This document shows positions 4,042-15,702 of a stretch of 15,702 nt of DNA, in pieces (within the stretch, counting starts at the first letter, position 1; each line of letters begins with the position of its first letter). Origin of the DNA: Chloroflexota bacterium (GTDB lineage: Bacteria; Chloroflexota; Chloroflexia; JAMDCE01); assembly GCA_023489135.1 (NCBI GenBank), contig JAMDCE010000012.1:1-15702 (forward strand), written 5' to 3'. Under the pieces are notes generated by a model that searched no databases, was not told the DNA's origin, and saw only the letters and a program-made list of their open reading frames with translations. A program made the position numbers and the translations under genes.

Positions 4042-4068
4042 TGGTAGGGGCACGGCGCGCCGTGCCCT
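4042..4068. repeat. Perfect 20-bp palindrome (TGGTAGGGGCACGGC family)
   Basis: GGGCACGGCG (4048-4057) is followed directly by its complement CGCCGTGCCC (4058-4067), preceded by TGGTAG. The same TGGTAGGGGCACGGCG start and GCCGTGCCCT end recur at 11819-11847, and inverted at 11953-11981, so this is a copy of a dispersed element. It lies between the NIL and KGG genes and could also act as a partial terminator or transcript stabiliser. Confidence 0.7.
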
Positions 4069-4104
4069 CCACGCCTCAACCGTCGACGGTGGAGGTTTGC
4101 AGCA

Positions 4105-4437
4105 GTGGATGATGTCGAAGAGGGCATCACGGTGCGGGAGGCGGGGAAGAGGGGTGGTCAGAGCGTCAAGGCCAAGTACGGAGAGGAGTACTTCTCGGAC
4201 ATTGGCAAGAAGGGCGGGAAGGCCCTTCGCGACAAGAGCGATGATAGCTTCTATGTTGAAAACGGCAAGAAAGGCGGTACCGCCTGCCGGCAAAAACACG
4301 GCCGCCAGTTTTATGTCAAGATCGGCCGGAAGGGCGGCGAAGCCCTGAAAGAAAAGCGGGGCAAAGAGCACTACTCCGAGATCGGCAAGAAGAAATCCGA
4401 GAGCCGGCCGGAGACAATGACCGCAGAGCAAGCTTAA
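4105..4437 (+). CDS. KGG-repeat (stress-induced acidophilic repeat) protein
   Basis: Small, very hydrophilic, Lys/Gly-rich protein of 110 aa. It is composed of four consecutive 20-residue units at residues 14-33, 34-53, 54-73 and 74-93, plus a broken fifth start at 94. Each unit opens with GK/R-x-GG, continues with a basic stretch and ends in an aromatic-x-x-I/N pattern, for example GKKGGKALRDKSDDSFYVEN. This matches the KGG motif family, which includes B. subtilis GsiB and resembles plant LEA proteins; members are linked to desiccation and general stress. No catalytic role is expected and the partner is unknown. The GTG start at 4105 has GGTGGAGG (4089-4095) 9 nt upstream. There is a single Cys (unit 3). 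The exact 20-residue period with no insertions suggests tandem duplication. A long inverted repeat follows the gene. Confidence 0.85.
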   Translation: MDDVEEGITVREAGKRGGQSVKAKYGEEYFSDIGKKGGKALRDKSDDSFYVENGKKGGTACRQKHGRQFYVKIGRKGGEALKEKRGKEHYSEIGKKKSESRPETMTAEQA

Positions 4438-11574: not shown

Positions 11575-11818
11575 TTCGCTGCTCTCCCTACCACCCACTT
11601 GCAGCTGTTTGTGCTTGATTGCCAGTGCGATGGCGTTTGCTGGTTTCATGTACTCATACTGCACGAACTGTGCCGTTACGAGCGGACGGTGGGATGGTTC
11701 ATAAAGCGGGGGAGATAGGGTAACAGTTTGCGTCGTTGAATCTGGCGAGGTTACCGGGTCCACAATTATCCTGTGAGGGTCAGAGGAAGAGGTCGGTGGC
11801 ACATTGAAGGCGAACAGC

Positions 11819-11981
11819 TGGTAGGGGCACGGCGTTGCCGTGCCCTGGAGTCGGCCGCAGTCCGAGTCCCTCAATCCAAGTCGAAATGTTGGTTTCCGAG
11901 ACGTTCAGCCTGCTCGCTGCCCAAATCGAGCTGTGAGCGATATTCTGCCGGTCAGGGCACGGCAACGCCGTGCCCCTACCA
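11819..11981. mobile_element. MITE-like element with 29-bp perfect terminal inverted repeats
   Basis: TGGTAGGGGCACGGCGTTGC and the following 9 bases (11819-11847) are repeated exactly in reverse complement at 11953-11981, enclosing 105 bp. Each arm is itself a small hairpin (GGGCACGGC/GCCGTGCCC around a 3-nt loop). A related single arm occurs at 4042-4068. No clear target-site duplication is visible. The interior, read on the minus strand (11920-11870), encodes the helix-turn-helix-like peptide AASRLNVSETNISTWIE, without a start or full protein. It may be a miniature transposable element, or two hairpins around a gene remnant. Confidence 0.6.
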
Positions 11982-12044
11982 TAGGGTGTCACGCCGCCGA
12001 ACTGCTGCCCAATTCCTGAACCATCCTCGGACGGTTCCTTGCGC

Positions 12045-12102
12045 TCACGCCTTGCCTGATAGCATTCCGAACGAGCGTTCCTCGCTCAGGCCGCCGGCGT
12101 GA
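12045..12102. promoter_or_regulatory. 58-nt nested dyad upstream of the sigma-54 promoter
   Basis: Three nested complementary pairs are seen: TCACGCC (12045-12051) with GGCGTGA (12096-12102), GCCTGA (12054-12059) with TCAGGC (12086-12091), and GAACG (12069-12073) with CGTTC (12076-12080). The centre is about 130 bp upstream of the predicted transcription start, inside the usual zone for sigma-54 activator sites. It could also be a terminator or a repeat. Confidence 0.4.
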
Positions 12103-12115
12103 CCACCGGCACGGA

Positions 12116-12125
12116 TGCACGTGCA
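12116..12125. promoter_or_regulatory. TGCACGTGCA palindrome, possible activator half-site cluster
   Basis: A perfect 10-bp palindrome overlapped by GTGCAATGCAC (12121-12131), centred about 84 bp upstream of the predicted start. The TGCAC half-site recalls the NtrC consensus (TGCAC...GTGCA), but the spacing between halves is wrong for NtrC. Confidence 0.3.
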
Positions 12126-12177
12126 ATGCACTATCCTTTGCTTGATGCCGATCAAGGACTGCCTAACAAGGCCTTAA

Positions 12178-12194
12178 TTGGCACGAATCTTGCA
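12178..12194 (+). promoter_or_regulatory. Sigma-54 (-24/-12) promoter for prkA-yhbH-spoVR
   Basis: TTGGCACGAATCTTGCA matches the sigma-54 consensus YTGGCACG-N4-TTGCW at every defined position. The GG is at 12180-12181, the GC at 12192-12193, and the required 10 bp lie between them. Predicted transcription starts near 12205, leaving a leader of about 255 nt before prkA. It would need an AAA+ enhancer-binding activator, which is not encoded in this window. Confidence 0.75.
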
Positions 12195-12316
12195 AACCAT
12201 GATCAGTGAAGCAGCAAAAGCCGAATAGGCTGAAGAAGAGCGTTCAGGGTAAATGGGAGCACAGAGCTTGACTGAACACTAGTCGCATTCAGAGGTGGAA
12301 ATAGGGCAACTTAATT

Positions 12317-12360
12317 GGCCGGCTATTCGCCTCCGTGGAGCGACGAGTACGGCCTTTTTT
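12317..12360 (+). terminator. Terminator-like hairpin with T6 tract in the prkA leader
   Basis: GGCCG (12317-12321) pairs with CGGCC (12350-12354), followed at once by TTTTTT (12355-12360). An inner CTCC/GGAG stem (12331-12340) caps the loop, with an unpaired interior between. The stem is short for a strong terminator. Its place between promoter and start codon suggests attenuation or a premature stop. Confidence 0.35.
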
Positions 12361-12460
12361 AGTAGGTGTTCGGGCAAATTCTAACTGTGGAGAGAGGGGA
12401 ATAGCGCAAATCGACCGAAATACGGTGTCCGCTGCACGAGAATCCAAGAAAGGATGTGAG

Positions 12461-14362
12461 GTGGCCGTGGATCTAGTCAGTAGATTAGAGAAATTCCGAG
12501 CCGAAGAACAGAAATTAGCCTGGGAGGGACCGTTTACCCAGTACTTCGAGATGGTCACAAAAGATCCCAGGCCCACACGCCTTTCCCACGCGCGCGTCTA
12601 CGATATGATCGTAGCCTCTGGGGTCGAAGTCGGCCGGGAAGGGGAGCCAACATACAATTTCTTTACATCAGAGCTTTTCGGGCTAGACAAGACGCTGCAA
12701 CAACTGGTCGATTACTTTCACTCCGCGGCCAAGAGGTTGGAGGTCCGCAAGAGGATACTCCTACTCATGGGCCCCGTCGGTGGAGGAAAATCGACCATTG
12801 TGTCGATGCTCAAGCGCGGGTTGGAGAGGTACTCCCGAGTGGACGAGGGCGCAGTGTACGCCATCAAAGGGTGTCCAATGCATGAGGAACCCCTCCACCT
12901 TATCCCGGAGGAGCTAAGGGAAGACATTAACAGAGAATACGGGCTGTATATCGAGGGAGACCTCTGCCCTGTCTGCCGGCAGATGGTTCAGGACGAACAT
13001 CACGGCAAGATCGAAGACGTGATAGTGCAGAGAATTGCCTTTTCCGAGAAGAATCGAACGGGCATCGGCACTTTCTCTCCCAGCGATCCCAAGTCCCAGG
13101 ACATCTCCGAGCTTACGGGAAGCATCGATCTGTCCACGATCGGCCAGTTCGGCGTGGAGTCTGACCCTCGGGCGTACCGGTTCGACGGCGAGCTGAACAT
13201 CGCCAACCGGGGTTTGATGGAATTTGTCGAGATGCTGAAGAGCGACGAGAAGTTCCTTTACGGACTGCTCACTCTCTCGCAGGAACAGAGCATTAAGACC
13301 GGAAGGTTCGCGATGATCTACGCGGACGAGGCCATAATGTCTCACACCAACGAAAACGAGTACACCGCGTTTATCGGCAATAAGAAATCGGAAGCGCTTC
13401 AGGACAGGATCATCGTGATCAAGGTGCCCTACAACCTGAGGGTCTCCGACGAGGTGAAGATATACGAGAAGCTCGTTTCGCAAAGCGACCTCAAGGGCGT
13501 GCATATCGCGCCGTACACCCTGAGAATCGCCAGCATCTTCGCCGTGCTGACGCGGCTGCAGGAATCCAAGAAGGCCGGCATGAGCGTCTCCAAGAAGCTG
13601 AAGCTCTACGACGGCGAGGACGTCGAGACCTTTACTCAGAAGGACGTTCGGGAGCTGCGTGAGGAAGCGCCGAGAGAGGGGATGGAGGGCATCTCGCCAC
13701 GCTACGTGATCAACCGGCTCTCCAACGCCCTGGTCAAGGAAAACATCAGCTGCATCAACGCCATTGACGCTCTTCGCGCGCTGAGAGACGGGTTCGACCA
13801 GCACACCAGCATAACCAAGGAAGAGCGCGAGAGATACCTGAACTTAATTTCCGAGGCTCGAAAAGAGTACGACGAGATGGCCAAGAAAGAAGTGCAAAAG
13901 GCCTTTGTCTACTCGTTCGAGGAATCGGCCAGGACTTTGCTAAACAACTACCTGGATAACGTCGAAGCCTTCTGCAACTCCGCCAAATTGAAGGATCCGA
14001 TCACGGAAGAACAGGTGGAGCCCGATGAGAAGCTGATGCGTTCCATCGAAGAGCAGATTGGTATTAGCGAGAATGCGAAGAAGGCTTTCCGAGAAGAGAT
14101 TCTGATACGAATTTCATCCAAGGCTAGAAAGGGCCAGGCCTTCGACTATATGACTCACGAGCGCTTGAGAGAAGCGATCGAGAAGAAGCTGTTCTCGGAC
14201 TTAAGGGATGTGGTCAAGATCACGACCTCGAGCAAGACACCCGACGCCGAGCAGCTGAAGAGGATCAACGAGGTGGTCGACAGGCTTGTCAGCGAACACG
14301 GTTACTGTCCGGTCTGTGCCAATGAGCTTCTGAAGTACGTTGGCACGCTGCTGAACCGGTAG
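12461..14362 (+). CDS. prkA: PrkA family AAA+ serine protein kinase
   Basis: Cytoplasmic PrkA (YeaG) homologue of 633 aa, close to the ~631 aa of the Gram-positive type. Described members are AAA+ proteins with a C-terminal kinase-like region and reported Ser/Thr kinase or Lon-like protease activity, acting in starvation and sporulation. Seen: Walker A GPVGGGKS (104-111); a Cys/His-rich region with GCPMHEEPLHLIP and DLCPVCR typical of the longer form; SEKNRTGIGTFSPSDPKSQD; NRGLMEFVEMLK; Walker B-like FAMIYADEAIMSHTNENE; LQDRIIVIKVPYNLRVSDEVKIYEK; a C-terminal helical kinase-like region; and the CPVCANELLKYVG ending. The GTG at 12461 has AAGGA (12450-12454) 6 nt upstream and gives the family's usual N-terminus; the frame open to 12335 is leader. 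It is first in the cluster with yhbH and spoVR, under the sigma-54 promoter. Confidence 0.95.
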   Translation: MAVDLVSRLEKFRAEEQKLAWEGPFTQYFEMVTKDPRPTRLSHARVYDMIVASGVEVGREGEPTYNFFTSELFGLDKTLQQLVDYFHSAAKRLEVRKRILLLMGPVGGGKSTIVSMLKRGLERYSRVDEGAVYAIKGCPMHEEPLHLIPEELREDINREYGLYIEGDLCPVCRQMVQDEHHGKIEDVIVQRIAFSEKNRTGIGTFSPSDPKSQDISELTGSIDLSTIGQFGVESDPRAYRFDGELNIANRGLMEFVEMLKSDEKFLYGLLTLSQEQSIKTGRFAMIYADEAIMSHTNENEYTAFIGNKKSEALQDRIIVIKVPYNLRVSDEVKIYEKLVSQSDLKGVHIAPYTLRIASIFAVLTRLQESKKAGMSVSKKLKLYDGEDVETFTQKDVRELREEAPREGMEGISPRYVINRLSNALVKENISCINAIDALRALRDGFDQHTSITKEERERYLNLISEARKEYDEMAKKEVQKAFVYSFEESARTLLNNYLDNVEAFCNSAKLKDPITEEQVEPDEKLMRSIEEQIGISENAKKAFREEILIRISSKARKGQAFDYMTHERLREAIEKKLFSDLRDVVKITTSSKTPDAEQLKRINEVVDRLVSEHGYCPVCANELLKYVGTLLNR

Positions 14363-14431: not shown

Positions 14432-15583
14432 ATGGCGTTCACAATATCACTATCAAAAAACGATTGGTCGTTGCATAGGAAAGGCCCAGCAGACCAGGCT
14501 CGGCACAACGAGAAGGTTCGAGAGGCAATCAAAGGCAACTTATCCAACATCATAAGCCAGGAAGCTATCATCACTTCTGATGGTAACAAAATAGTCAAGG
14601 TGCCCATTAGGTCTCTGGAGTTGCCGCGCTTCCGGTACGATTTCAGGAAGAAGAACCAGGTGGGGCAGGGGGAAGGGGAATCGAAACCGGGAGACAACGT
14701 GGGGCAGGGGCAGCCGGGACAGGGACAAGGACGGCAAGCCGGAGACCAACCGGGCATCGACTACTTCGAGGCAGAAGTCACCATCGAGGAAATCGCTTCC
14801 CTGCTTTTCGACGAGATGGGGTTGCCTAACCTCGAGCAGAAGCAAGCCGCAGAGGTAGAGGCGGCGGGAATCAAATACAACGACATCCACAAGATCGGCA
14901 TCATGGGCAACCTGGATAAGAGGCGGACGATTATGGAAAACATCCGCCGCAATGCCCTGGTGAACCACGACCCAACCTTCCAGCACGTAACCAGGGACGA
15001 TCTGAGGTTCCGAACCTGGAATCCCGACGTGAAGCGCGATACCAACGCCGTGGTCATCGCCATGCGCGACGTATCCGCCAGTATGGGAGAGTTCGAGAAG
15101 TACATAACCCGAAGCTTCTACTTCTGGATGGTGAAGTTCCTGCGGCGAAAGTACAACGCCGTCAAGATCGTGTTCATCACTCACCATACCGAAGCCAAGG
15201 AAGTGGATGAGGAAACGTTCTTCAAGCTGGGAGAGAGCGGCGGCACCAAGGTTTCCTCGGCCTACAAGCTGGCCCTGGACGTAATCGAGCAGCGCTACGA
15301 CCCTCAAGCCTGGAACATCTACCCGTTCCACTTCTCGGACGGAGACAACTGGGGCGACGGCGACAACAAGCTGTGCGTGGAGCTGGTTAACAAGCTGATT
15401 TCGGTGTGCAACATCTTCGGCTACGGTGAGATTCAGGAGAGCCGCCATAGCTCGCCCAGCACGCTGATGTCCGCTTTCCTGTCTATCCAGAGCGATCGGT
15501 TTATTCCCGTGACCATCGCCGACAAGGCCGATGTTTATCCTGCTCTCCGCAAGTTCTTCACTCCGAGGGAGGCGGCGGCGTAA
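14432..15583 (+). CDS. yhbH: YhbH/YeaH family protein (DUF444, VWA-like)
   Basis: DUF444 protein of 383 aa, the regular partner of PrkA (yeaH beside yeaG in E. coli; yhbH in Bacillus). Seen: N-terminal DWSLHRKGPADQARHNEKVREAIK, typical of the family; a low-complexity Gly/Gln linker at about 75-107; EIASLLFDEMGLPNLEQK; and a C-terminal von Willebrand A-like fold with the metal-site motif D213-V-S-A-S217 (RDVSASMG), FITHHTEAKEVDEETFF, SGGTKVSSAY, and YPFHFSDGDNWGDGDN. The biochemical role is not settled; genetics place it with PrkA in stationary-phase or nitrogen-starvation responses. ATG 14432 has GGGGGAGG about 10 nt upstream. It lies 69 nt after prkA and one nucleotide before spoVR, so all three form an operon. 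Confidence 0.94.
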   Translation: MAFTISLSKNDWSLHRKGPADQARHNEKVREAIKGNLSNIISQEAIITSDGNKIVKVPIRSLELPRFRYDFRKKNQVGQGEGESKPGDNVGQGQPGQGQGRQAGDQPGIDYFEAEVTIEEIASLLFDEMGLPNLEQKQAAEVEAAGIKYNDIHKIGIMGNLDKRRTIMENIRRNALVNHDPTFQHVTRDDLRFRTWNPDVKRDTNAVVIAMRDVSASMGEFEKYITRSFYFWMVKFLRRKYNAVKIVFITHHTEAKEVDEETFFKLGESGGTKVSSAYKLALDVIEQRYDPQAWNIYPFHFSDGDNWGDGDNKLCVELVNKLISVCNIFGYGEIQESRHSSPSTLMSAFLSIQSDRFIPVTIADKADVYPALRKFFTPREAAA

Positions 15584-15584
15584 G

Positions 15585-15702
15585 ATGTATGTAGACCCTG
15601 AGCTAAAGCAACTGGAGGACGCCGCGGCTACTATTTGGGAAATGGCCATCAACATGGGCCTGGACCCATTTCCCACGCACTTCGAGGTAGTCCCGTCCTC
15701 GA
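15585..15702 (+). CDS. spoVR: SpoVR family protein, N-terminal fragment (runs off the window)
   Basis: The first 39 residues are visible, ending IWEMAINMGLDPFPTHFEVV plus PSS. The pattern (helix, then GLD-x-(F/Y)P-x-x-FEV) is the N-terminus of SpoVR/YcgB proteins, and position after prkA-yhbH makes the call secure. Full-length members are about 450-500 aa. The ATG at 15585 lies one base after the yhbH TAA, with GAGGGAGG (15565-15572) 12 nt upstream, so translation is probably coupled. In Bacillus SpoVR affects spore cortex formation; no sporulation is implied for this organism. Confidence 0.88.
   Translation, partial: MYVDPELKQLEDAAATIWEMAINMGLDPFPTHFEVVPSS

Follow-up and report, generated by a model that had tools for sequence, protein, structure and literature searches.

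The prkA locus and its upstream element

The window, which is the whole stretch of 15,702 nucleotides analysed here, ends with three co-directional genes, prkA, yhbH (DUF444) and spoVR, in this order. They lie downstream of a -24/-12 element and a predicted leader. The features are as follows (G244 is the genome of the nearest relative):

12179..12194, plus strand: sigma-54 -24/-12 promoter element by sequence, TGGCACGAATCTTGCA (0 mismatches, 0.01 expected; counterpart TGGCACAGTTCTTGCA in G244)
12205..12466, plus strand: predicted 5' leader of the sigma-54 transcript (start at about 12205 predicted from the -24/-12 geometry)
12317..12360, plus strand: terminator-like hairpin and TTTTTT tract in the leader (-16.8 kcal/mol; aligns with G244 at z 6.4)
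12467..14362, plus strand: prkA, AAA_PrkA and PrkA C-terminal domain, GTG start (Pfam PF08298, E-value 7.4e-129; PF06798, E-value 5.5e-98)
14432..15583, plus strand: yhbH/yeaH, DUF444 (Pfam PF04285, E-value 3e-107)
15585..15702, plus strand: 5' end of spoVR, cut by the window end (aligns with the start of SpoVR in G244)

An earlier reading, made from the sequence alone (the sequence-only reading), had named these three genes. Pfam confirmed the calls for prkA and yhbH. Since only 118 bases of the third gene lie inside the window, spoVR was confirmed through the G244 counterpart at the aligned place (PF04293, E-value 1.7e-149). The start of prkA was taken as the GTG at 12467, which by eye is preceded by a purine-rich, ribosome-site-like stretch; the predicted leader is thus about 262 nt long.

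The element carries GG and GC at the exact spacing and matches TGGCACG-N4-TTGCW at 12 of 12 positions. By chance, a mean of 0.01 such matches is expected per window, and 2 of 200 shuffles contained one. When up to two mismatches were allowed, it was still the sole match in the window (2.07 expected), and the runner-up positions with the invariant GG and GC reached 9/12. The GG-N10-GC pattern by itself carries no evidential weight, with 256 matches in the window vs 234 expected. The distance from the element to the prkA GTG is 288 bp, or -291 when counted from the second codon. The near-perfect match with exact spacing that the sequence-only reading had placed on the coding strand upstream of prkA was therefore borne out, except that the element starts at 12179 and the earlier string began at 12178.

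When the same scan was run on yeaG of E. coli MG1655, TGGCATGAGAGTTGCT was recovered at -119 (11/12), and thus the scan detects a known case. A simple consensus scan of positions 11700-12520 found no sigma-70-type promoter. By sequence, identification of the window element as a putative sigma-54 promoter is supported. Short GC-rich repeats (GGGGCACGGC..GCCGTGCCC) seem by eye to recur in the window at ~4043-4070, ~11820-11850 and ~11950-11980; of these, two precede the prkA promoter.

Relatives of the locus and recurrence of the element

A scan of named genomes yielded 80 prkA loci, mostly labelled Chloroflexi, the closest being 80% identical. The nearest relative, G244 (3.1 Mb), was reached via relatives of G002; its PrkA is 86% identical and the locus is syntenic. 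The gene order cinA, uroporphyrinogen-decarboxylase-like, dedA, ftsH, prkA, yhbH and spoVR is common to both, while the DUF362 and response-regulator genes found in the window between cinA and the uroporphyrinogen-decarboxylase-like gene are missing in G244. The presence of prkA is uneven: 61 of the 201 G002 relatives have it, and 5 of the 197 G004 relatives.

In a 39-row PrkA tree, drawn without G244, the window protein was placed among Chloroflexota PrkA, beside that of locus L001. This supports the earlier taxonomic guess, in the sense that the window is Chloroflexota-like. The sequence-only reading had also left open that the regulation was transferred; transfer together with the gene from Proteobacteria is not indicated, as the window PrkA is only 32% identical to E. 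coli YeaG and groups with Chloroflexota. L001 itself belongs to a bin labelled Patescibacteria, without rpoN and without the site, and its contig may be misbinned or transferred. A second PrkA gene was observed in G002 (55% identical to that of the window), G019 (57%) and G003 (76%). In addition, the PrkA genes of some Chloroflexota relatives carry inteins (Intein_splicing, LAGLIDADG_3) at about PrkA residues 209 and 257 (L327 87-3593, minus strand; L328 99-4613, minus strand; L329 189-3344, plus strand). L328 seems to carry two, and the PrkA of L330 has an insert near residue 289 with no intein match.

RpoN (PF04552) was found in 39 of the 44 genomes with a close prkA relative, which cover 44 of the 80 loci, and in 12 of 20 genomes of a second set, in which G033 repeats the first set and G261 has a short partial match only. 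G244 has one rpoN. From these relatives, we infer that the source organism carries rpoN as well; by this proxy, the absence of rpoN that would have refuted the sequence-only reading does not apply. The remark that many Chloroflexota lack rpoN stands in part: a survey finds the gene in only some Chloroflexi (PMC3162934), and the three genomes under the names Thermomicrobiaceae or Thermalbibacter are without it, but it is found in most of the genomes that contain a close prkA relative. The RpoN box, which reads the -24 element, has the form ARRTV[AT]KYR in 22 of 23 Chloroflexota-type RpoN loci. A zinc-ribbon-like CxxC...CxxC insert after region I was seen in 20 of 23 loci examined from such genomes (L090-L098, L100, L102, L104, L106, L107, L109, L211-L214 and L232) and in none of eight from Bacillota/Acidobacteriota; L089 differs, L099 is truncated and L108 is not readable.

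When the regions before prkA were scanned, the element recurred in some close relatives, which goes against a second refuting condition of the sequence-only reading, a lack of conservation before close prkA homologues. The G244 counterpart lies at -286 from the second prkA codon, compared with -291 in the window, and 11/12 sites were found in G002 (-136), G003 (-130), G019 (-131), G031 (-136) and G004 (-459). G009 and G010 are among those with 10/12 sites. In total, 6 of 34 loci from rpoN-bearing, mostly Chloroflexota genomes reached at least 11/12 (0.06 expected from first-order Markov resamplings; none on the reverse strand), and 11 of 34 reached at least 10/12 (0.75 expected). None of five loci from genomes without rpoN reached 10.

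Several loci stood outside these counts. An orientation check set aside four rpoN-bearing loci (best scores: L021 9, L022 7, L157 10, L173 9) and five rpoN-lacking ones (L029 7, L030 8, L032 7, L172 8, L175 10), and L007 (score 5) and L028 (score 6; its match misses the start) were also left out. When the nine loci excluded by orientation and L007 were restored, sites of at least 11 were present in 6 of 39 rpoN-bearing and 0 of 10 rpoN-lacking genomes. Also outside the count were nine loci that have rpoN but belong to other phyla or carry other labels (L034, L035, L036, L039, L051, L056, L064, L074 and L080); L051 scored 10 and the rest 8 or lower or had no match. In the correct orientation, best scores before prkA were 8 for L150, L151, L154, L158 and L172, 9 for L174, and 10 for L157 and L175. 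In G041 (L060), no site precedes prkA and a 12/12 site lies between prkA and yhbH.

The link is patchy, in that sites of at least 11 are missing before prkA in the majority of rpoN-bearing relatives, and above all in Ktedonobacteria. The six sites are also not independent, because G002, G003 and G019 form one clade in the PrkA tree.

The predicted leader and its hairpin

When the window and G244 were compared by global alignment against plain base shuffles, in segments picked after the alignment was viewed, similarity was observed from the site to the hairpin (z 4.6) and at the hairpin itself (z 6.4). It ends there (window 12317-12360; counterpart at 5257-5306 of L180): between the hairpin and a point some 20 bp short of the start codon there is no likeness (z 1.2). 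The 250 bp upstream of the site are unaligned (z 0.0), and retention of the site at -291/-286 beside such DNA supports a function. A blastn search of the leader against the fetched loci misses the similarity. Because the segments were picked post hoc and blastn is blind to it, conservation of the leader up to the hairpin is suggestive only.

In these two sequences the hairpin stem is conserved and the loop divergent. Of five long-leader loci, four (window, G244, G004 and G009) show a terminator-like hairpin 107-144 nt upstream of prkA and G010 has none. An equally good hairpin arose in 2/40 shuffles of the window, 0/40 of G244, 8/40 of G004 and 0/40 of G009 (first-order Markov resamplings, as for the terminator frequencies below). 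Folding of the whole leader is ordinary (z -0.96 in the window, -0.20 in G244).

Two further ideas on the leader were not upheld. Terminators are not clearly a general trait of long-leader sites (7 of 15 in G244 vs 6.1 expected; 10 of 22 in G037 vs 5.6), and the leader does not appear to be a known RNA family, as Rfam gave no match in the window and two weak antisense matches, far below cut-off, in G244. A DNA search for leader copies in G244 and 40 relatives found none that was convincing. It also missed the leader of G244 itself, finding the start-codon end alone, so absence of other copies means little.

The hairpin with its U-tract may fit either attenuation or a separate small RNA, and it may terminate the transcript before prkA, which is a point against an operon promoter. 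In the second case, the product of the sigma-54 promoter would be a small RNA in its own right, about 150 nt long and ending at 12317-12360, and prkA would have its own promoter downstream. The extent of the window-G244 similarity, from the site to the hairpin and little beyond, and the position of the hairpins in four of five long-leader loci are in favour of such an RNA. However, the simple scan sees no sigma-70-type promoter that could serve prkA at 11700-12520, blastn and Rfam give the RNA no support, and the sites of G002, G003, G019 and G031 lie as near as 130-136 bp to prkA, a distance at which direct transcription is the straightforward interpretation. We consider the small RNA unlikely.

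The candidate activator, the putative regulon and known systems

Strong sigma-54 activator matches (E-value below 1e-50) were sought in the relatives, whose genomes are drafts of unstated completeness. Exactly one was present, among the matches listed, in 14 relatives (G002, G003, G009, G010, G019, G022, G031, G037 and G041, together with G244, G246, G253, G256 and G258). In some genomes, including G002, G003 and G019, the matches listed come from at most 62 candidates. The G010 copy is truncated at the end of a contig, and a second fragment lies elsewhere. G004 and G021 had no strong match among those listed, G291 had three, and Ktedonobacteria often had two or three. By Pfam, the complete G003 activator consists of receiver, AAA+ and HTH_8 domains, and the cut G244 activator of receiver and AAA+. 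In G003, genes for a histidine-kinase-like protein and a BON protein separate the activator gene from the nearby rpoN, and in G002, G009, G019, G022 and G031 the activator gene is also within about 5 kb of rpoN. The sigma-54 contact loop, usually GAFTGA, reads GSFTSA in five of the nine activator proteins compared. The G244 activator gene has a sigma-54 site of its own 416 bp upstream.

No activator-binding motif shared upstream of the G244 and G004 sites was found, though weakly specific sites would escape such a search. The top dyads resembled those of shuffles. In G244 the 6-mer CGCCGA was the top word (22 of 45, where shuffles reached 17 at most), but its counts upstream (35) and downstream (29) are nearly alike, and thus it looks like background.

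When TGGCAC-N5-TTGCW was counted in whole genomes, with the same pattern reversed as control, an excess was observed in G244 (49:2), G037 (67:6), G004 (20:0), G010 (21:5), G006 (29:5), G005 (30:5), G009 (14:2), G041 (9:2) and G021 (10:2). Counts were not clearly above the control in G002 (10:8), G003 (8:11), G019 (6:3) and G031 (9:5). Genes were placed by a simple caller trained on the window genes (called coding fraction of the fetched stretches 0.66-0.72). Distinct sites were mostly intergenic (45/48 in G244, 18/20 in G004 and 60/67 in G037), and the next gene was often co-directional (40/48, 15/20 and 46/67, respectively). In G244, 23 of the 40 co-directional sites lie 46-133 bp before the gene; some sites are distant, as much as 1 kb away from the gene listed for them.

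Thirty of the 40 co-directional G244 genes were scanned with Pfam and 24 had a match. The matches include KGG/LEA, rubrerythrin, BON, glycosyltransferase 20 (which we take to be the trehalose-phosphate synthase family), DJ-1/PfpI, an M50 peptidase with CBS and a subtilase. A histidine kinase, a response regulator and the activator itself are also in the set, together with ABC1, phosphoribosyltransferase, MurT, RNase J, penicillin-binding protein, 2-hydroxyacid dehydrogenase, CofD and others. Several targets are common to G244 and G037, among them the response regulator (68%), MurT (73%), RNase J (69%), penicillin-binding protein (77%) and 2-hydroxyacid dehydrogenase (79%). The G037 set also includes an FtsH N-terminus, DUF302, Nramp and a DUF2231-Rieske protein, and one G004 target scanned is Hsp20. 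From the listing, the set appears to tilt to stress, with envelope genes as prominent. Sigma-54 has been described as governing the cell exterior (PMC3162934), and the prominence of envelope genes is in keeping with that. As a side observation, the KGG family is a sigma-54 target in G244 (L200), and the window frame at 4105-4437 resembles by eye a KGG-repeat stress protein, with no site of 9 or more before it.

The sequence-only reading had pointed to nitrogen starvation and NtrC, as for E. coli yeaGH. The 11/12 element before E. coli yeaG agrees with such control, and NtrC and the activator of the relatives fall into one broad class of response regulators. On the other hand, the relatives have one strong activator match for many sites, and the 30 G244 targets that were scanned, of which 24 matched Pfam, include no nitrogen-assimilation gene. 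The NtrC reading is thus not supported, and we regard it as improbable.

We think it probable that 12179-12194 is a functional sigma-54 promoter for prkA-yhbH-spoVR, with an AAA+ activator-dependent start at about 12205, a place in a regulon of several dozen sites and possible attenuation at the hairpin. RpoN-RNA polymerase would bind 12179-12194 and wait as a closed complex until the AAA+ activator remodels it, and transcription would then run from about 12205 through the three genes. The activator would most likely be the organism's only one, of the response-regulator type with a Fis-family helix-turn-helix. Since the lineage would have several dozen promoters of this kind, the presumed inducing signal would act on prkA together with stress, envelope and signalling genes. 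The leader hairpin and U-tract (12317-12360) may limit read-through into prkA. A chance match or decayed, functionless relic is scarcely credible: most rpoN-bearing relatives lack the site, but expectation was 0.01 in the window and 0.06 against the 6 of 34 loci observed, and G244 keeps the site though its upstream DNA is unaligned.

PrkA is widespread, and sigma-54 control of the prkA operon is already known in three classes of Proteobacteria. It is reported in E. coli (PMC4664914, PMC6299236), where yeaGH has two adjacent promoters (PMC6299236). Like the window, yeaGH (sigma-54/NtrC and sigma-38) is a kinase and DUF444 operon behind a -24/-12 element. It differs in its distant PrkA (32% identity) and, in MG1655, in being followed by cdgI, not a spoVR gene; the setting here would be a single activator, perhaps not NtrC, and a broad regulon. 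The three-gene prkA-vWA-spoVR operon of Rhizobium etli is reported as strongly sigma-N (RpoN1) dependent and raised on growth arrest, but NtrC is said to act negatively (PMC3188799) and the phylum is another. In Burkholderia cenocepacia, an NtrC regulon table includes prkA, the next gene and a SpoVR gene (PMC5491218). That case differs in being a nitrogen circuit of Betaproteobacteria. In Chlamydia, CtcC is to our knowledge the only sigma-54 activator, and it has no DNA-binding domain, unlike the G003 activator with its HTH_8. There, the CtcB-CtcC pair is reported to drive the sigma-54 regulon through a response-regulator activator (PMC7482065). Control differs again in Bacillus subtilis, where a prkA of the same family is under sporulation sigma-E (PMC3188799), and the Bacillota-labelled loci scanned have no site of at least 11 in the 600 bp before prkA. 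No study of sigma-54 control of prkA, or of a sigma-54 regulon, in Chloroflexota was found in the open-access literature searched.

This promoter adds a new instance to a known link, and its regulatory setting is new as well. The phylum, the sole response-regulator activator and the zinc-ribbon-like RpoN insert appear to be new and, less surely, so does the leader with its terminator-like hairpin. Genes of the kinds seen here (prkA-yhbH-spoVR, KGG, BON, glycosyltransferase 20, DJ-1/PfpI, rubrerythrin and Hsp20) are controlled elsewhere by RpoS or SigB. As a tentative proposal, which we hold with less than even confidence, zinc-ribbon RpoN in a branch of Chloroflexota may form, with one response-regulator activator, a global stress/envelope sigma system, to which the prkA locus would add a conserved leader containing a conditional terminator or a small RNA. 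The findings point to a large single-activator sigma-54 regulon in Chloroflexota and to a zinc-ribbon-like RpoN variant, and a Chloroflexota case with a different activator setting allows the idea of a recurrent reason behind the sigma-54-prkA link to be tested.
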